The notes: a model not told the origin generated them from the sequence alone. A stretch of DNA of 64,000 bases from Bacteroidota bacterium (GCA_018266795.1 JAFDZV010000004.1:133273-197272); one strand, 5' to 3'. Counted from the stretch's first letter, positions 3,536-14,768 are shown. Numbers and translations: made by a program.

Positions 3536-4654
3536 GTGAACGCACGACGATTTGTTGCCCCTGCACTGGCGATAGTTCTTCTGGCAGGCGTGGCTGCTGC
3601 CGTCTGGTACTCCAACAGAGACGTGAAGTCCGGACGCGCGGCGGCGGACAGCACTGCCCGGGCAGGGGGCGGTACTGTTCACGGGCTGATCGGCTCCGAG
3701 AAGGAGGCGTTCTTCTCCGACCCTCGGGTTCGGAAGGCGCTCGGCGCACACGGACTTACCGCCGTCGTAGAGAAGGCCGGGTCCCGCACAATCGCCAACA
3801 GCTACGATCCCAAGCTCTACGACTTCGGCTTTCCCTCCGGTGCTCCTGCCGCCGCCGAGCTGCGCGCGCGCTCCAAGGCGCGCAACGTCTACACGCCGTT
3901 CTACACCCCCATCGTCCTGGCAAGCTGGCGTCCGATCGCGGAGATCCTTGTGGCGAACGGCATTGCGGTGAAGCAGGATGACTTCTACTACGTGGTGGAC
4001 ATGGCGCGCCTGATCACGATGATCAAGGATGGGACGCGCTGGAAGGATCTGAAGGGGAGCGCTGCGTTCCAGACCGGGAAGGCCGTGCTTGTGAACTCCA
4101 CCGACGTGCGCACCTCGAACAGCGCCGCGATGTACCTCTCGCTCGCCAGCTACGTGGCCAACGACCAGCAGGTTGTCGGCAGCCAGGCGGAGGTGGACAA
4201 GGTGATGCCGATCGTTGCGCCGCTTTTTCTGCGGCAGGGATTTCAGGAGACATCGTCCGCTGGCCCGTTCGAGGATTATCTGGCGCTTGGCATGGGGAAG
4301 GCGCCGCTGCTGGTTGCGTACGAGTCGCAGATGGTGGAGTTCTGGCTGAAGCATCCTGACCGCATCTCGAGCGATATGGTGCTTCTGTATCCCAGGCCGA
4401 CGGTCTACTCCAAGCATGTGATCGTTCCGTACACGCCGGCCGGCGAGCTGCTTGGAGCGGCGATGGAGAGCGACACGGCGCTCATCGCGCTGGCGCACGA
4501 TTACGGCTTCCGCACCGGCGGCGACGTGAAGGGCCCGGAGATCTGGGCGCGCAAGGGGATCAAGGTCCCGGTGGTGCTGCAGGATGTAGTGGATCCGCCG
4601 AGCTACGAATGGCTCGAGCGCATGATCAAGGAGATCGAATCGCGATTCAACTGA
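3536..4654 (+). CDS. Membrane-anchored extracellular solute-binding-like protein
   Basis: 372 residues. An uncleaved-looking N-terminal anchor (about residues 8-24, PALAIVLLAGVAAAVW) precedes a periplasmic-binding-protein-like domain: repeated alternation of hydrophobic strands and helices, and phrases such as KAVLVNSTDVRTSNSAAMYL and PLLVAYESQMVEFW typical of type 2 binding proteins. Start is GTG 3536, preceded by AAGGGAG at 3523-3530. It is first of four genes, 10 nt before telA-family. The family usually captures a ligand for an ABC importer, but no permease or ATPase is nearby, so it more likely feeds or senses for the TelA/VWA assembly (inference). Confidence 0.8.
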   Translation: MNARRFVAPALAIVLLAGVAAAVWYSNRDVKSGRAAADSTARAGGGTVHGLIGSEKEAFFSDPRVRKALGAHGLTAVVEKAGSRTIANSYDPKLYDFGFPSGAPAAAELRARSKARNVYTPFYTPIVLASWRPIAEILVANGIAVKQDDFYYVVDMARLITMIKDGTRWKDLKGSAAFQTGKAVLVNSTDVRTSNSAAMYLSLASYVANDQQVVGSQAEVDKVMPIVAPLFLRQGFQETSSAGPFEDYLALGMGKAPLLVAYESQMVEFWLKHPDRISSDMVLLYPRPTVYSKHVIVPYTPAGELLGAAMESDTALIALAHDYGFRTGGDVKGPEIWARKGIKVPVVLQDVVDPPSYEWLERMIKEIESRFN

Positions 4655-4664
4655 AGGAGACACA

Positions 4665-5891
4665 ATGAGCAATCCCGAGACCAGTGGAACGGAGCTTCCC
4701 CCACCCGGCGCATTTGCGCTGGAGCCGCCCGCGCCGGTGCAGCCGGTTCCGGTGGAAACGGCTGCCGGACGCATCCGGCTCGATCCGAAGGAGGTGGCCG
4801 CGCTCGACGACCAGGTGAAGCGCTTCGTGCAGGATATCACCACGGCCGATACGCACGACGAGAAGTTCCAGGAGGCGCTGGACCGCATCCACACGATGGG
4901 GAACAAGGAGATCGAGGCCTCGGCCGGCATGTCCAACCGCATGCTGGACCGTCCGGTGAAGGCGATGGAGCACGGGCTCTTCAGCAAGAGCTCCGATGTA
5001 GGCGGCAGCCTTATCGAACTGCGGCGTACCATCGAGGATCTCGATCCGTCGAAGCAGGGGGATCTCTTCTCGCCGCGGAAGCTGCTCGGGCTGATTCCGT
5101 TCGGCAACAAGATCCTGGATTACTTCGACCGCTACCGCTCCGCGCAGACACATATCAACGCCATCATCGAGTCGCTGAAGCGCGGCAAGGATGAGTTGAT
5201 CCGCGACAATGCCGCGATCGAGCAGGAGAAGATCAACCTCTGGACGTTGATGGAGCGGCTGGAGAAGTACACGCACATCGCCCGCGAACTGGATGCAGAG
5301 CTCGATGCGAAGGCGAAGGAGTTCGATGCGGCAGACCCCGAGAAGGCGCGCATCGTTCGGGAGGAGATGCTGTTCTACACGCGGCAGAAGGTGACCGATC
5401 TGCTGACGCAGATGAGTGTGAACGTACAGGGGTATCTGGCGCTGGATCTGATACGGCGCAACAATCTGGAGTTGATCAAGGGAGTGGACCGGGCAACCAC
5501 CACCACGATCGCCGCGCTGCGAACGGCGGTGATGGTTGCGCAGGCGCTCACCAACGAGAAGCTGGTGCTGGATCAGATCACCGCGCTCAGCACAACCACG
5601 GGCAATCTGATCGAGGCCACCAGCGAGATGCTGCGCACGCAGACGGCGGAGATCCACCAGCAGGCGGCTTCCAGCACGATCGAGATCGACAAGCTTCGCC
5701 GTGCGTTCGACAACATTTATCAGACCATGGATGCGATCGCGGACTTCAAGACGAAGGCGCTCGATTCGATGCAGGCAACGGTGAACATGCTGTCGCAGGA
5801 GGTGGAGAAATCCAAGGCGTATCTGGACCGGGCGCGTGGCTCGGAATCGGTTGAAGCGCCAGCTGCCGGTACCGGCGAGGTGACGCTGTGA
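4665..5891 (+). CDS. TelA/KlaA-family toxic-anion resistance protein
   Basis: 408 residues, almost entirely helical, matching the TelA family in length and pattern. A Pro-rich N-terminus leads into long helical heptads, with typical blocks LIPFGNKILDYFDRY (about residue 147), INLWTLMERLEKY and NNLELIKGVDRATTTTIAALRTAV. No signal peptide or membrane segment, so it should be cytoplasmic or peripheral. The family is linked to tellurite and other toxic-anion or cell-envelope stress phenotypes, with no known enzymatic activity. GAAGGAGA at 4653-4660 supports ATG 4665. The next gene starts inside its stop (GTGA overlap), implying translational coupling. Confidence 0.92.
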   Translation: MSNPETSGTELPPPGAFALEPPAPVQPVPVETAAGRIRLDPKEVAALDDQVKRFVQDITTADTHDEKFQEALDRIHTMGNKEIEASAGMSNRMLDRPVKAMEHGLFSKSSDVGGSLIELRRTIEDLDPSKQGDLFSPRKLLGLIPFGNKILDYFDRYRSAQTHINAIIESLKRGKDELIRDNAAIEQEKINLWTLMERLEKYTHIARELDAELDAKAKEFDAADPEKARIVREEMLFYTRQKVTDLLTQMSVNVQGYLALDLIRRNNLELIKGVDRATTTTIAALRTAVMVAQALTNEKLVLDQITALSTTTGNLIEATSEMLRTQTAEIHQQAASSTIEIDKLRRAFDNIYQTMDAIADFKTKALDSMQATVNMLSQEVEKSKAYLDRARGSESVEAPAAGTGEVTL

Positions 5892-7534
5892 ACCGCGCGC
5901 CCGGGCATCGGGGCGGGGCGGCTCTGCGCGGAGGCTTCATTGCGCGGGCCGCATGCACACTCCTGCTCGGCGTGCTCGTGGTTGCTGCTGCCGGATGCGG
6001 ACGCGCCGCGAAGGGGCCCGGGGGAGCAGGTGCTTCCGGCGACGGTGCTTCCGGCGACGGCGGCGCTGACACCTTCAGGATCCTTGCGGGCTCCGAGTTG
6101 CGCGACCTTGCGCCGGCGATTCAGGCCGCCGCCGCTCAGGCGCATGTGAACGTTGCGTTCAGTTATGCCGGCACGCTCGATATCGTTGAGCGGATCAACG
6201 ATGGCGAGCACTTCGATGCCATCCTTCCGCCGAACGGTGCGTATCCGGTTCTGGCGCTGGCGAAGAAGCCGCTGGCTCGCGAGAAGCTGTTCTACTCGCG
6301 GGTGGCTCTGGGAGTGAAGGCCACGAAGGCGGCGGAGCTTGGCTGGGATGCGAATCCGCCGACATGGGCGGAGATCGCGGCCGCTGCCCGTGCCGGCCGC
6401 TTCCGATACGCAATGACCAACCCTACCAGCTCCAACACCGGAATGAGTGCGCTCTTCGCGGTGGCCTCGGCGGCCGCGAAGAAGACGGAGGATCTTGCCG
6501 TACAGGATGTAGATCCGCACGTGATCACCGACTTCCTTGCCGGCCAGAAACTCACGGCAGGCAGCTCCGGCTGGCTGGCCGATGCGTATCTGAAGGATCC
6601 GTCGGTTGTGGACGGCATCGTGAACTACGAGGCGGTGATTCTGCGGCTGAACGACAAGCTGCCGCAGAGCGAGCGATTGAACCTCATCTACCCGCGCGAC
6701 GGCGTCATCTCTGCGGACTATCCGCTGATGTTGCTGGAGAGCGGGCGGCGCGATGAATACAACCGTCTTGTTGTTGCGCTGAAGGGAACGGAGTTCCAGC
6801 GCAGCGCACTCGGCCCGGCATATCTGCGGCCGTCGAACCCCGATGCCGGTCTGGTGCCGGCGCTTCCGTCGGGAGCGGTTGCCGAGCTTGCGTTCCCGAA
6901 TCGCCTGGAGGTGATCGATGCCGTGCTGACATCGTATCAGAGCAACTGGCGGCGCCCCTCGACGTCGATATTCGTGCTGGATGTGAGCGGCTCGATGGCC
7001 GGCGAACGGCTGGATGGTGTCCGCAAGGCGCTCAGAGTGCTGGCCGGCGCCGATACCTCCAGCGCAACGGCGCGATATGCCCGCTTTCAGAATCGTGAGC
7101 GTGTGGTGCTGATCACCTTCTCCAACGATGTCTCCGAGCCCACCACCGTGGATGTTGCTGCGGGTGATATCCCGCAGGCCCATGCTCGCATACGCGATTT
7201 TGCCGATGCGCTCAGGGCGAAGAACGGAACGGCGATCTACTCGGCGCTTAGCGCCGCCAACGACCTCGCTCTGCGCGAAGCTGCGGCGGACACCGGCCGC
7301 TTTGTGAGCATCGTTCTGCTGACCGACGGTGAAAGCAACACGGGGATTTCCTTCGGCGACTATGCGAGTGCCGTGAGCGCCTCCCCGCAGCACGTGCGGG
7401 TGTTTCCGATTCTCTTCGGTGAGTCCAGTGTGGACCAGATGCAGGCCGTGGCCGATCTGACAGGCGGGCGGGTGTTCGATGCGCGTACCACGTCGCTTGC
7501 GGTGGTGTTCAAGGAAATACGGGGATACCAGTGA
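5888..7534 (+). CDS. Lipoprotein with substrate-binding and VWA domains
   Basis: 548 residues. A lipobox with Cys 37 (VVAAAGC) predicts a lipid-anchored protein. Residues ~60-340 resemble an SBP_bac_11-type substrate-binding domain. Residues ~358-545 form a von Willebrand A domain with a MIDAS: DVSGSMAG near residue 365 and LLTDGESNTG near 480. VWA domains bind metal and protein partners; here one could report ligand occupancy to TelA (inference). GTG 5888 overlaps the telA-family stop by 4 nt, and its own stop overlaps the next GTG by 4 nt. Similar proteins are usually named substrate-binding and VWA domain-containing protein. Confidence 0.88.
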   Translation: MNRAPGHRGGAALRGGFIARAACTLLLGVLVVAAAGCGRAAKGPGGAGASGDGASGDGGADTFRILAGSELRDLAPAIQAAAAQAHVNVAFSYAGTLDIVERINDGEHFDAILPPNGAYPVLALAKKPLAREKLFYSRVALGVKATKAAELGWDANPPTWAEIAAAARAGRFRYAMTNPTSSNTGMSALFAVASAAAKKTEDLAVQDVDPHVITDFLAGQKLTAGSSGWLADAYLKDPSVVDGIVNYEAVILRLNDKLPQSERLNLIYPRDGVISADYPLMLLESGRRDEYNRLVVALKGTEFQRSALGPAYLRPSNPDAGLVPALPSGAVAELAFPNRLEVIDAVLTSYQSNWRRPSTSIFVLDVSGSMAGERLDGVRKALRVLAGADTSSATARYARFQNRERVVLITFSNDVSEPTTVDVAAGDIPQAHARIRDFADALRAKNGTAIYSALSAANDLALREAAADTGRFVSIVLLTDGESNTGISFGDYASAVSASPQHVRVFPILFGESSVDQMQAVADLTGGRVFDARTTSLAVVFKEIRGYQ

Positions 7535-8160
7535 GCGAGCGTCCACTGAATCTGCGGCTGAAGCTGTTTCTGTTCAGCAACGCGAACATGCTGGGCTGCG
7601 GCCTTGCACTGCTGGGCCCTGCGCTGCTGTTCGCCGGTGTGATCCATCAGTACTGGCTTGTCATTACCGCAGCGCTGTACGGCGCCGGCTATCTTCTCGG
7701 CGGCCGTGCGCCCGAGCTGGAGCGCCGCATCGAGGAGAGTCTCACACTGGAGGAAACGATTGCCCGGCTGGATGCGATCATCGCAACGGCAAAACCGCAT
7801 CTTACCGATCCGATGGCGGCTCATCTGGCAAGCCTGCGCACCTCCATCGTGGAAGTGCTGCCACGCCTCATGGAGTCGGGAGGTGGGAATGCCGATCTCT
7901 TCACCGTCCGGGAGACCGTACTCCGATATCTTCCGGAGACGCTTGCGAACTATGCAGCCCTGCCTCCGGCTTTTCGTACGACGCAGGCGTTGAAGGACGG
8001 CAAGACCGCGCGTGACCTGATGGAGGGACAGCTGGAACTTCTGGATTCGAAGATGAAGGAGATCGTTGCCAACGTTGCTTCGAGCGACGCGCAGGCGCTG
8101 CTCGCCAACGGAAAATTCCTGGAGATGAAATTCCAGCAGCCGGATTTTCTGGCTGGGTAA
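7531..8160 (+). CDS. XpaC-like membrane protein (bromo-chloroindolyl phosphate hydrolysis family)
   Basis: 209 residues. Two adjacent membrane segments (about 12-37 and 40-57) precede a cytosolic helical domain with the family phrase LRYLPETLANYAALPP near residue 130. Members are called 5-bromo-4-chloroindolyl phosphate hydrolysis proteins from a Bacillus phenotype; true enzymatic activity is not established. They are commonly encoded beside TelA, as here. GTG 7531 overlaps the VWA gene stop (GTGA). It ends the operon, and a strong hairpin starts 27 nt after the stop. Confidence 0.85.
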   Translation: MSERPLNLRLKLFLFSNANMLGCGLALLGPALLFAGVIHQYWLVITAALYGAGYLLGGRAPELERRIEESLTLEETIARLDAIIATAKPHLTDPMAAHLASLRTSIVEVLPRLMESGGGNADLFTVRETVLRYLPETLANYAALPPAFRTTQALKDGKTARDLMEGQLELLDSKMKEIVANVASSDAQALLANGKFLEMKFQQPDFLAG

Positions 8161-8186: not shown

Positions 8187-8220
8187 CCGCCCCTCCTCGC
8201 ATTTCTTCGAGGAGGGGCGG
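8187..8220. terminator. Bidirectional terminator between convergent genes
   Basis: A perfect 13-bp G+C-rich stem (8187-8199 with 8208-8220) with loop CATTTCTT is followed by a T-rich stretch on the plus strand (8221-8229). It lies between the 8160 stop (+) and the 8247 stop (-), so it can serve both transcripts. Confidence 0.85.
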
Positions 8221-10269: not shown

Positions 10270-10388
10270 ACACTCGTGCCTGCCACCGTGTGGCCGCAAT
10301 GTCGTGACCATGAGATGTCGGAACGAGCCCCATCACTCGCAATTATCGGTTCTCGTTTCGCCATATTATCATCAGTTTGATACCAGCC

Positions 10389-11777
10389 ATGAAACTGCTT
10401 ATCCAACATTTCACCCGCATGGGATACTGCCGGATCTACCCTACCATTGCCATCCTTCATATCGCGGCGGCGGCTCTGCTCTCCGCGCAACCGGTGACAT
10501 GGAAAACAGCGCAGCATTATCAGGATTATTACATCTGGAACATCAGTTGTACCGACGATTCGAATTGTTTTGCGGTTGCTTCATATCAGCAGACGGCGGT
10601 GAGCATGATTCTGCGTACCACGAACGGCGGGCTGACGTGGGATTCTGTCTACAGTGAGCGGCAGGTGCCGGCAGGCCCCAGGATTCCCACCTACGTTGGC
10701 GTTGCGCGGCCAACACGATCGCGGGCCATCGTGGTTGCAGACAGCGGCCTCATTATCCGCACAACGGATGGGGGGGCAACGTGGCGGCGGCAGCGCATTG
10801 CAGGCCGCTCAACGATTGCGTGGATCAGCATGGCGGATTCGATGCATGGGCTTGTTGGGCTGCTCGCTTCTCCGAACAGCCTGATGGCTACGGGCGATGG
10901 AGGGGAAACCTGGGACCCCGTTGCGTTTCCCGATACGGTACAGTCCATGGGGGTGACGGACGTGGCCATGCCCACTCCCACCACGTTCGTCGCACTGATG
11001 TCATGGTATCCGCACAACGCCGTTGTGCGCTCGGACGATCGCGGAGCAACGTGGCGCGTGTTCCCGAACGCGCTGCCGGACAGCTCCGCAGGCAGCCTCT
11101 GGTTCAACGACAGCCTCCACGGCTGGGCGGCCGGCGATGTGTATACCGGTGTTGGAGACAATCGCCGCGAAGTGATCTCCCGGACAACCGATGGCGGCGC
11201 CACGTGGACCACGCAGCTCAACGCCGAGGTTGGATGGAAGTTCGGGCTTACCGATATCGCCTTCACCAGCCCGGACTCCGGTCTGGCCGTGGGTGGGATC
11301 GGCACCATCCTTCGCACTGCGGACGGAGGCGCACACTGGACTGTTGAGCCGAACGATCTCACGGCACTTCAGGTTCTTCACGTGGCGTATCCACGAGGGA
11401 GTCGTGGGATCGTCGTTACCACCGTTGGACGTGTTGCTCTACCTGCTGATCTGGTACCGGCGGATGTTGTCCCGGATGCGAATGCAGACGACGGCGCCCT
11501 TCCGGCCACATGTGCGGTCTACCCCAATCCGGTTGCGAACACATCTCTTACGGTTCTGCTTCCACCGTCTGTATCACAGCCTGTGCACGTAGTGATAACT
11601 GATGTCATGGGCCGTGTTGCGAGGACCCTGGATGCCGTGGCCGGCACCGGAGGGGTGGCAGACACCGAGGGGCACGAACTTCACATCGACATGTCCGGCA
11701 TTCCGGCAGGTGCCTACATGGTGCACCTTTCAGTTCGTGAGAGAACCTTCAGCCGGATTGTATATGTTGTGCGGTAA
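10389..11777 (+). CDS. T9SS-sorted beta-propeller protein with BNR/YCF48-like repeats
   Basis: 462 residues. An N-terminal hydrophobic stretch (IAILHIAAAALLSAQ) is a signal peptide. The body carries repeated Asp-box/BNR blades (NGGLTW, DGGATW, DGGETW, DRGATW, DGGATW, DGGAHW), so a beta-propeller like YCF48-type proteins. The last ~80 residues are a type IX secretion sorting domain: CAVYPNPVANTSLTV, VVITDVMGRVARTL, IPAGAYMVHLSV and a basic end. It should cross the outer membrane by T9SS and be surface-attached or released. ATG 10389 gives the better start than TTG 10377; ATG 10419 is also possible. No Shine-Dalgarno, normal for this phylum. Confidence 0.85.
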   Translation: MKLLIQHFTRMGYCRIYPTIAILHIAAAALLSAQPVTWKTAQHYQDYYIWNISCTDDSNCFAVASYQQTAVSMILRTTNGGLTWDSVYSERQVPAGPRIPTYVGVARPTRSRAIVVADSGLIIRTTDGGATWRRQRIAGRSTIAWISMADSMHGLVGLLASPNSLMATGDGGETWDPVAFPDTVQSMGVTDVAMPTPTTFVALMSWYPHNAVVRSDDRGATWRVFPNALPDSSAGSLWFNDSLHGWAAGDVYTGVGDNRREVISRTTDGGATWTTQLNAEVGWKFGLTDIAFTSPDSGLAVGGIGTILRTADGGAHWTVEPNDLTALQVLHVAYPRGSRGIVVTTVGRVALPADLVPADVVPDANADDGALPATCAVYPNPVANTSLTVLLPPSVSQPVHVVITDVMGRVARTLDAVAGTGGVADTEGHELHIDMSGIPAGAYMVHLSVRERTFSRIVYVVR

Positions 11778-12546: not shown

Positions 12547-14259
12547 TCAGTCCACTTTGATCATCTTCACCAGGCGTCTGCCGGCCCTGATGACATACGG
12601 GCCGGCCGGGAGACCGCGCAGATCGATGGAGCCGGTGCAGGCGAACTCGCGCACTACCATCCCCTGAGCGGAGAATATTTGCACATGCTCTCCGGCGGCG
12701 ACATTCTCCAGGTGCACGAACTCCGAAGCCGGGTTGGGATGGAGCGGAAGAGCTTCCGCAGCGGAGGGCGCCGGCTGCGGCACGGAGGCTCCGGTGCTCT
12801 CGAGGCGCGCGAGAACGATATCGTTTGCTCCGGCGCTTCCCAATCTGAACGGGCCGACGCCGATGGTATCGGTGAACATGCCGATGGTGGTGCAGGAGCC
12901 GTAGCCCGAGGGGGCGATGTCCCCGGCGCTTGCATCGGCGTTGCCCGAGATCTGGGCGGCCATGACGGAAGCTCCCTGCGCGTTCATGTGTACCACGAAC
13001 GCGCTTGTGTGCGGCGCGGGGCTCGAGAGGTGAGCCGTGCCCAGATCCATCGTGCCGGTGAACGATCCGGCTGCGAAGATGCTTCCGTCGCGATCTACGC
13101 AGATGCCGGCAACGTGCGCCGCCTGATCGGCGCCCGTGGATTGCATGGACCATATGTAGTTTCCGTCGCCATCGTATTTCACGATCAATGCCGCGTAGTT
13201 CAGCCCGTTGTTGTAGGTGTGCTGCGTCGTGCCGAAACCGAGCGTTGCCCTGAACTCCCCGCACACATAGAAGTTGCCGTCGGCATCCGCGGCGATATCC
13301 TCTCCGGCTCCGTAGTAGCTGCCGCTGCCGATCTCCTTCGCCCAGAGCACCGTGCCGTCGCGATCGAACTTGGCGATGAATGCCTTCTGCTCCGCATCGC
13401 CGGCATCGAAGGAGAAGCCGCCGAACGAAAGAGTGTTGAAGAACTTGCCGCTCACGATGCAGTTCCCGCCGCCGTCCACCGCGATGCCGAGTCCGAGATG
13501 CAGCGCTCCGGTGCCGCCGCCGGAGCGGGCCCAGAGCGCATGCCCTGCGCTGTCGTACTTGGCTACGAATGCCTCGTAGGCGAGCGTGCTGGCAAGTGCG
13601 ATGGTGTCGAACTCCGCATCCTTGTTGTAGTAGCCGGTGATGTAGGGGTTGCCGCCCGAGTCCAGGCCGATGGAACTGATCCCATCCTCTCCGTAGCTTC
13701 CTGTTGCTGCGCCTCCGGGCGTTCGCGCCCACACAACGGCTCCCGCGTTGTTCAACTTCACAAGCAGCATGTCCGTCGGGCCGCGGCTCGTACGCAACGT
13801 ATCGCCCTTGAACGTGACGCCGGCAACGAACCGGCCGCCGATGTAGATATTTCCGGCGCCGTCCAACGCGATCCCGCTGCCGTAGATGTCCGACCCGGTG
13901 CCCGTGGTATAGGCAACAACGGTGGCCCATACGATCCGGCCGGCAGTGTTGTACTTCGCCAGGAAGAGCCTCCAGACGCCCGGCCCCGCAAGCGTAACGG
14001 TGTCGAACTGTGCGCTTCCCTGAAACTCGCCGATCGCATAGCTGTTGCCGTCCGCATCAACTGCAACGTGGTCGCCGTAGTCGTTCCCGCTGCCGCCGGC
14101 CCGCTCCGCGAACCTCCACGTCTGCGCGCCGGCATGCCCGGTTGCCAGCGCGAGGAGGAGTGCGAAAACGAGAACGCTCATGGGGTATCGTACCGTGCCC
14201 GTTGTTCCTCCGTTCATCGTCTCTGTGTGCGTGCCGTTCGGTACCGGTTGGGATCGCAT
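12547..14259 (-). CDS. T9SS-sorted SBBP beta-propeller protein
   Basis: 570 residues. Signal peptide MSVLVFALLLALATGHAGAQ, here behind an N-terminal extension. At least eight SBBP-type blades follow (ADGNSYAIGEF, GAGNIYIGGRF, SGGNPYITGYY, GGGNCIVSGKF, ADGNFYVCGEF, RDGSIFAAGSF and others). The end is a type IX sorting domain (LHPNPASEFVHLENV, VQIFSAQGMVVREF, LRGLPAGPYVIRA). Such proteins are surface-exposed, of unknown ligand. Start is uncertain: 14259 has AAGG upstream, but 14217 or 14181 would give a more normal signal peptide length. Confidence 0.85.
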   Translation of the reverse strand: MRSQPVPNGTHTETMNGGTTGTVRYPMSVLVFALLLALATGHAGAQTWRFAERAGGSGNDYGDHVAVDADGNSYAIGEFQGSAQFDTVTLAGPGVWRLFLAKYNTAGRIVWATVVAYTTGTGSDIYGSGIALDGAGNIYIGGRFVAGVTFKGDTLRTSRGPTDMLLVKLNNAGAVVWARTPGGAATGSYGEDGISSIGLDSGGNPYITGYYNKDAEFDTIALASTLAYEAFVAKYDSAGHALWARSGGGTGALHLGLGIAVDGGGNCIVSGKFFNTLSFGGFSFDAGDAEQKAFIAKFDRDGTVLWAKEIGSGSYYGAGEDIAADADGNFYVCGEFRATLGFGTTQHTYNNGLNYAALIVKYDGDGNYIWSMQSTGADQAAHVAGICVDRDGSIFAAGSFTGTMDLGTAHLSSPAPHTSAFVVHMNAQGASVMAAQISGNADASAGDIAPSGYGSCTTIGMFTDTIGVGPFRLGSAGANDIVLARLESTGASVPQPAPSAAEALPLHPNPASEFVHLENVAAGEHVQIFSAQGMVVREFACTGSIDLRGLPAGPYVIRAGRRLVKMIKVD

Positions 14260-14768
14260 GTTCGTGCCTTGTTGGTTGGATGCGGCGGCAGATCGGCTTC
14301 GCCTGCCGTGCATGTCGTGAATAATCGATCCGCAACATGGGGCATACGGTGTGGCGCGGGCAACCCGATGTTCGCCCGGAATGCAAGGATCAGACCGGAC
14401 CGCGGGAGCGTTGGCCGCAACTGAATTGCCGATTTCATGAATGTATGCGGTAGTTCATGGTGCGCCCGGAGAAAAATCAACGGGCGTGGGCCCACGGTGG
14501 AAGGGGCGGTACCGGCGGACGATGGAAGCATCACCGATGGCTGCATCGCGCCTTCATCCTCGTGGATCGTGCTGGCTACTGAGTTCATGATGCGTTCCGT
14601 TTGAACGATCGCGGATTGGATGATATGTTGGCGGCTGCCCGTACGGCCGCGGGCCGATATCGCAACGCCCGCGCCCGCGAACGGAATCCGGAACAATTCG
14701 TTTTCGTGACATACCCGTTCAGCATCGTGCCTCGGGTGCATCAATGCCAGGCATTCAACGTGACAATG
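14260..14768. other. Divergent intergenic region
   Basis: About 500 nt between divergent genes. A short palindrome (gtgggcccac, near 14488) is visible. No gene or clear promoter assigned. Confidence 0.45.

Follow-up and report, generated by a model that had tools for sequence, protein, structure and literature searches.

What two proteins resembling the substrate-binding proteins (SBPs) of importers do in an operon with a TelA-family gene, an XpaC-like gene and no permease is the question raised by a locus in a Bacteroidota bacterium (GCA_018266795.1). The locus lies in a stretch of 64,000 nucleotides (JAFDZV010000004.1:133273-197272), referred to here as the window. Open reading frame (ORF) analysis placed four genes on the + strand at 3536-8160, encoding SBP1, TelA, a protein in which an SBP domain is fused to a VWA domain (SBP-VWA) and an XpaC-like protein; a preliminary description, made from the sequence of the window, had reported the same four-gene cassette, and all four ORFs were present where it had located them. 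In our judgement, there is about an even chance that the products of the cassette form a sensor/effector complex across the envelope, akin to TelA-XpaC envelope-stress systems, and not an importer; the best reading is that the sigma-W xpaC-yaaN (XpaC-TelA) pair occurs here in a variant form that includes a periplasmic arm. The features of the locus are as follows.

3536-4654, + strand: SBP1 gene, GTG start, 372 amino acids (aa); type-II periplasmic binding-protein homologue
4665-5891, + strand: TelA gene (PF05816), ATG start, 408 aa; soluble protein
5888-5891, + strand: GTGA overlap of the TelA stop and the SBP-VWA start
5888-7534, + strand: SBP-VWA gene, GTG start, 548 aa; predicted lipoprotein, SBP_bac_11 plus VWA
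6980-6994, + strand: DVSGS (D365, S367, S369) of the metal-ion-dependent adhesion site (MIDAS) of SBP-VWA, with the T448 codon at 7229-7231 and the D480 codon at 7325-7327; codons verified
7531-7534, + strand: GTGA overlap of the SBP-VWA stop and the XpaC-like start
7531-8160, + strand: XpaC-like gene, GTG start, 209 aa; hydrophobic N-terminus, conserved C-terminal motif
8187-8220, strand ".": terminator-like 13-bp stem-loop just 3' of the last gene, from a pattern scan

The four genes are a genuine unit, and their arrangement is far beyond chance, because they stay together in 19 other loci. Comparison of gene order in relatives, which the preliminary description had suggested, yielded 15 loci with the order SBP1-TelA-SBP-VWA-XpaC of the window, in Burkholderiales, Nonomuraea (Actinomycetota) and Deinococcota, spanning three phyla besides that of the window, as well as four loci with a permuted order. 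Order was judged on loci that were complete enough, and the 15 include one in which SBP1 is split into two frames; the fixed order holds in every such locus except a Deinococcus plasmid without TelA, with the permuted Pseudomonadota form taken separately. This permuted form (i.e., TelA, SBP-VWA, XpaC, SBP1) was found in four genomes by a PF10112 search of 200 Pseudomonadota genomes, which also returned XpaC-TelA pairs. About 620-640 bases separate SBP-VWA from SBP1 in the permuted form and hold a PF10112 XpaC of 204-210 aa.

Other searches led to the same loci. Seven genomes were matched with TelA as the query, and in three Burkholderiales metagenome-assembled genomes the complete cassette is present with its order unchanged, at 61-71% identity. 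When plasmids were searched with each protein separately, the same loci were found in Sphaerotilus, Nonomuraea and Variovorax, together with the Deinococcus plasmid without TelA. Of 349 Burkholderiales genomes, whole-genome profile searches detected SBP-VWA in seven; of 111 Deinococcota genomes, four had a close form. An independent SBP1 search of the 349 Burkholderiales genomes returned exactly the seven with SBP-VWA; the chance of this 7-of-7 overlap, if the two genes were placed independently, is about 1e-14, a value that ignores the relatedness of the genomes. The genes flanking the cassette vary by locus, and when 71 neighbouring proteins were scanned with Pfam, each family was limited to two proteins at most.

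Some individual loci deserve separate mention. The cassette of Lampropedia hyalina (L005, 7204-7440) has intact SBP1 and TelA genes and is decaying by truncation, since its third gene ends shortly after the start (LRILAGSEIKSKIGSDI, followed by a stop). At the G682 locus (L044, 11982-13120), SBP1 lies in two overlapping frames, representing a frameshift or a sequencing error. The Deinococcus taeanensis plasmid (L012, 7874-11080) encodes SBP1, SBP-VWA and XpaC without TelA, which is apparently dispensable there or encoded elsewhere. More divergent SBP-like and VWA-region proteins in Deinococcota (L050-L055) have no SBP1, TelA or XpaC nearby. On the Variovorax SRS16 plasmid (L013, 11114-19446), the cassette has a flotillin/OB-fold pair on its upstream side and a Wadjet defence system approximately 2.4 kb downstream.

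Hydropathy and a lipoprotein-type Cys indicate that, of the four cassette products, two would lie in the periplasm, one in the membrane and one in the cytoplasm. SBP1 lacks a lipobox and has a single hydrophobic segment, at N-terminal residues 6-24. SBP-VWA combines an SBP_bac_11 domain (residues 71-304; Pfam, 5.5e-16) with a VWA domain (residues 361-534; Pfam, 2.7e-10) and is a predicted lipoprotein through Cys37, which follows a hydrophobic stretch and is conserved in 8 of 9 aligned proteins. Its MIDAS residues D365, S367, S369, T448 and D480 are invariant in 22 of 22 SBP-VWA proteins; the DxSxS motif and the conserved T and D that define a VWA MIDAS are thus all present. The preliminary description had likewise reported two binding-like proteins, one of them fused to a VWA domain with an intact MIDAS.

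SBP1 itself had no accepted Pfam match and matched no ligand-specific family. In a profile-profile comparison (hhalign), its alignment to the SBP half of SBP-VWA spanned 289 columns, with a probability of 97.8% and an E value of 9.5e-13; this identifies SBP1, at the level of sequence profiles, as a homologue of that half. The two share the motifs GSE, AGS/T, SNS/SNT, YE and YP, which appear in SBP1 as GSEK, AGS, TSNS, YExQ and YP, conserved in 22 homologues. Invariant positions are G82, P100, D190, S194, G235, F245, Y248, Y262, E263 and Q265 among the 22 SBP1 proteins and S69, E70, S182, N183, G185, S226, S227, D277 and P279 among 22 SBP-VWA proteins, in which E248 and D98 are nearly so. These residues would look like functional clefts, in which the cleft-lining positions themselves are putative. 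A search of solved structures with the SBP-VWA profile returned just VWA and weak ModA matches, and the same searches with the SBP1, TelA and XpaC profiles returned nothing useful. A link to phosphonate, raised in the preliminary description, was not borne out, as SBP-VWA matches SBP_bac_11 and, weakly, ModA-like proteins; a phosphonate-type ATP-binding cassette (ABC) operon was a neighbour of just a single cassette, in Deinococcota, where it lies on the opposite strand.

The TelA protein of the window matches PF05816 over model positions 3-332 of 332 (E 1.4e-90, 304 bits against a cut-off of 30), is 71% identical to a Burkholderiales TelA and has no membrane segment predicted from hydropathy. 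The N-terminus of the fourth protein is hydrophobic at about residues 17-58 and may form a hairpin there; its C-terminal domain contains a YLPxxxxxYxxLP motif, of which the P and Y are conserved across 22 sequences; the YLP-x5-Y core is common to this protein and PF10112 XpaC. A PF10112 search at E values up to 0.1 found no match for the window protein or for eight homologues, and profile comparison with PF10112 was weak (hhalign, E 3.4e-4 with a probability of 38%; with a wider profile, 23% in local and 58% in global mode). Gene position argues more strongly. The fourth gene is linked to TelA in the cassettes, and its slot is filled by a PF10112 member in the four permuted Pseudomonadota cassettes; because the same three partners occur with a bona fide XpaC in that slot, the fourth protein can be called XpaC-like by position, with weaker support from sequence. 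The XpaC label of the preliminary description was thus upheld by gene order in relatives and not by Pfam or profile comparison. In a Trueperaceae locus (L006, 7460-8605), a gene convergent with TelA encodes PspC fused to two XpaC-like domains, a fusion that links XpaC to the phage-shock envelope response.

Neither an ABC permease, the absence of which the preliminary description had noted, nor an ABC ATPase was found in or near the window cassette, and the cassette thus lacks the linked permease (PF00528) and ATPase (PF00005) that characterize an ABC importer. A scan for the ABC-ATPase signature found none within 3 kb of any of the 16 cassettes, with three lying farther off; the regular presence of an ABC permease or ATPase beside SBP1 in relatives, which the preliminary description had named as the mark of an import system, was therefore not observed. 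Since no ATPase is linked, sensing is the better reading of the binding domains, as that description had suggested, and it is reached by inference and not by demonstration. We consider it quite improbable that the cassette is an orphan import system, with SBP1 and SBP-VWA delivering substrate to an ABC or other permease that is shared and encoded at another locus, and with TelA and XpaC in an accessory role, regulatory or protective. Both binding proteins belong by homology to the SBP fold, their putative pocket residues are conserved, and the host genome encodes 19 PF00528 ABC permeases; however, none of the 19 is on the 392-kb contig of the window, the cassette crosses phyla without a transporter, so that each new host would need a compatible permease, and SBP1 and a fused VWA domain would be unusual for an importer. 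A precedent for import comes from Vibrio rotiferianus plasmid pAM7 (L017, 220-9001), where a distant TelA operon encodes NMT1-type SBPs, OmpA-domain proteins, a separate vWA protein, an ABC permease and an ATPase. The pAM7-type TelA gene is carried by six Vibrio plasmids, and this operon, which does include a transporter, may represent a sister system.

Two further explanations were weighed. One is that the cassette is a self-contained, horizontally spread operon for resistance to toxic oxyanions, in which the SBPs scavenge tellurite or a similar anion within the periplasm and TelA and XpaC protect the cell. TelA takes its name from tellurite resistance, SBP_bac_11 and ModA-like proteins bind oxyanions, and the cassette is horizontally mobile and present on large plasmids, but the cassettes have no recurrent neighbour that would encode a reductase, an efflux pump or another metal-resistance function, the plasmid tellurite operon klaABC has TelA alone in common with them, and periplasmic scavenging by itself would be a poor resistance mechanism; we regard this explanation as unlikely. 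The other is that the complex is a barrier against phages or plasmids that detects an intruder at the envelope, whereupon TelA blocks its entry, along the lines of the proposal for Ter systems that TelA and vWA proteins build sub-membrane structures against phages or xenobiotics (PMC7824862). The scattered distribution and horizontal transfer of the cassette would suit a defence function, as would the Variovorax plasmid copy close to a Wadjet system. Taking into consideration that no defence genes recur beside the other loci, that PADLOC gave a weak, partial-length match of TelA to PD-T7-3 and no other match, and that viral contigs contained no relatives of SBP1 or TelA and matched through the VWA domain only, we consider such a barrier very improbable.

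Literature on XpaC and TelA, together with the absence of a transporter, favours an envelope stress-protection unit with a ligand-sensing arm. In B. subtilis, xpaC-yaaN is a core operon of the sigma-W (envelope stress) response (PMC3498285). In Listeria, XpaC and TelA homologues rise with the bacteriocin garvicin KS (PMC12791056), and disruption of a TelA homologue is described, in the part of that article citing Collins et al. 2010, as increasing sensitivity to nisin 4-fold and to tellurite 2-fold. In the sensor/effector complex proposed here, the N-terminal segment of SBP1 would anchor it in the inner membrane, SBP-VWA would be attached as a lipoprotein, and both SBP domains would lie in the periplasm. 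The two homologous domains may share a small ligand or bind related ones; an oxyanion or a signal of envelope damage would be candidates. Binding could expose or close the MIDAS face of the VWA domain, which would then grip an acidic residue of SBP1 or of XpaC, as the invariance of the MIDAS suggests. By analogy with XpaC-TelA pairs of other bacteria, which respond to envelope stress and cationic peptides, membrane-bound XpaC might relay the change to cytoplasmic TelA, and TelA may in turn coat or stabilize the membrane.

Several points weigh against this proposal. The phenotype, interaction and ligand steps are inferred, the sequence evidence for XpaC homology is weak, and the Deinococcus cassette without TelA suggests that the module may be able to do without TelA. 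The SBPs could also share a stand-alone permease encoded at another place in the genome. Structure predictions were too poor for use, with mean AlphaFold2 predicted local distance difference test values of 45 for SBP1 (6-sequence input) and 47 for SBP-VWA (4-sequence input). A stronger form of the proposal, which we put forward only tentatively and with some doubt, is that the cassette is a new four-protein signalling machine, in which the SBPs read a small molecule and a MIDAS-VWA switch transmits the reading through XpaC to TelA, with no need of a transporter, kinase or sigma factor. Links between TelA and tolerance of tellurite, phage, colicin and nisin go back decades yet lack a mechanism, and conserved periplasmic partners with ligand-binding domains and a metal-site VWA domain are a plausible input for TelA and XpaC. 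The cassette is small and self-contained and has crossed phyla, and should therefore be portable to a laboratory host.

The TelA, XpaC, VWA and SBP families are known, as are XpaC-TelA pairs, and RefSeq already names the SBP-VWA of the Variovorax cassette "substrate-binding and VWA domain-containing protein". No description of the four-gene combination was found in the literature searched, with an earlier mention in the 2012 comparative genomics of Ter and TelA possible. A TelA-family gene adjoins an XpaC-family gene in the cassette as in xpaC-yaaN of B. subtilis, in lmo1966-lmo1967 of Listeria and in pairs seen here in other Pseudomonadota; xpaC-yaaN, however, consists of two genes without an SBP or VWA domain, and the fourth protein of the window has no PF10112 match. 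The kilA operon (klaA-klaB-klaC) of IncP-alpha plasmids is likewise a compact operon with a TelA (KlaB), but its KlaA is distantly TelA-like and its KlaC is a membrane protein, and hidden Markov model or profile comparison showed no homology of either to SBP, VWA or XpaC. KlaC and KlaA of the RK2-type operon were considered as counterparts of SBP1 and XpaC and rejected, as they have no similarity to the SBP1, SBP-VWA or XpaC profiles. Ter systems (TerB/TerC/TerD/TerF with TelA) also bring TelA and vWA proteins together, whereas the vWA domain of the cassette is predicted to be periplasmic and is fused to an SBP; no Ter family was present among the 25 of 80 matched families listed for the 71 neighbouring proteins, and no Ter annotation was found beside L010, L012 or L013. 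Like the cassette, the Vibrio pAM7 operon combines TelA with SBP-like proteins and a vWA protein, here a separate one; it differs in its BPD_transp_1 permease, ABC ATPase and OmpA-domain proteins and in lacking both an SBP-VWA fusion and, as judged by hhalign, an XpaC-like protein. A 257-aa protein encoded between SBP and TelA on pAM7 was rejected as an XpaC (hhalign probability 0.1%).

The window copy was probably acquired as a whole cassette by horizontal transfer, because it is nested inside the Burkholderiales copies in a concatenated four-protein tree and is absent from the 394 other sampled genomes of its own phylum. The tree places the window next to L040 and L002-L004 (support 0.961), this group with L041 (0.992) and these with Sphaerotilus (1.000). 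In searches of genomes of the class or phylum of the window, neither TelA (61 genomes) nor SBP-VWA (395 genomes) was found outside the genome of the window itself. Contamination of the assembly is an unlikely source of the cassette, which lies inside a 392-kb contig, has a G+C content matching that of the rest of the window and is flanked by proteins with sorting tails of the type IX secretion system (T9SS). Two of these, encoded close downstream at 10377-11777 and 12547-14313 of the window, have beta-propeller-type repeats and C-terminal T9SS tails typical of the host lineage.

An Rfam scan of the window gave no match, and NCBIfam at its cut-offs added nothing for the cassette proteins. The stem-loop at 8187-8220 probably marks the end of the operon, on weak grounds, as it was scored on the - strand and such sites are near chance in this region (5 found, 4.0 expected). 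Both GTGA overlaps given in the preliminary description were found at the gene junctions. The 4-base overlap of TelA and SBP-VWA is identical in L002-L004, L010, L041 and L045 and takes an ATGA form in L042, and the junction of SBP-VWA with the XpaC-like gene is tight in many relatives, though not in all.

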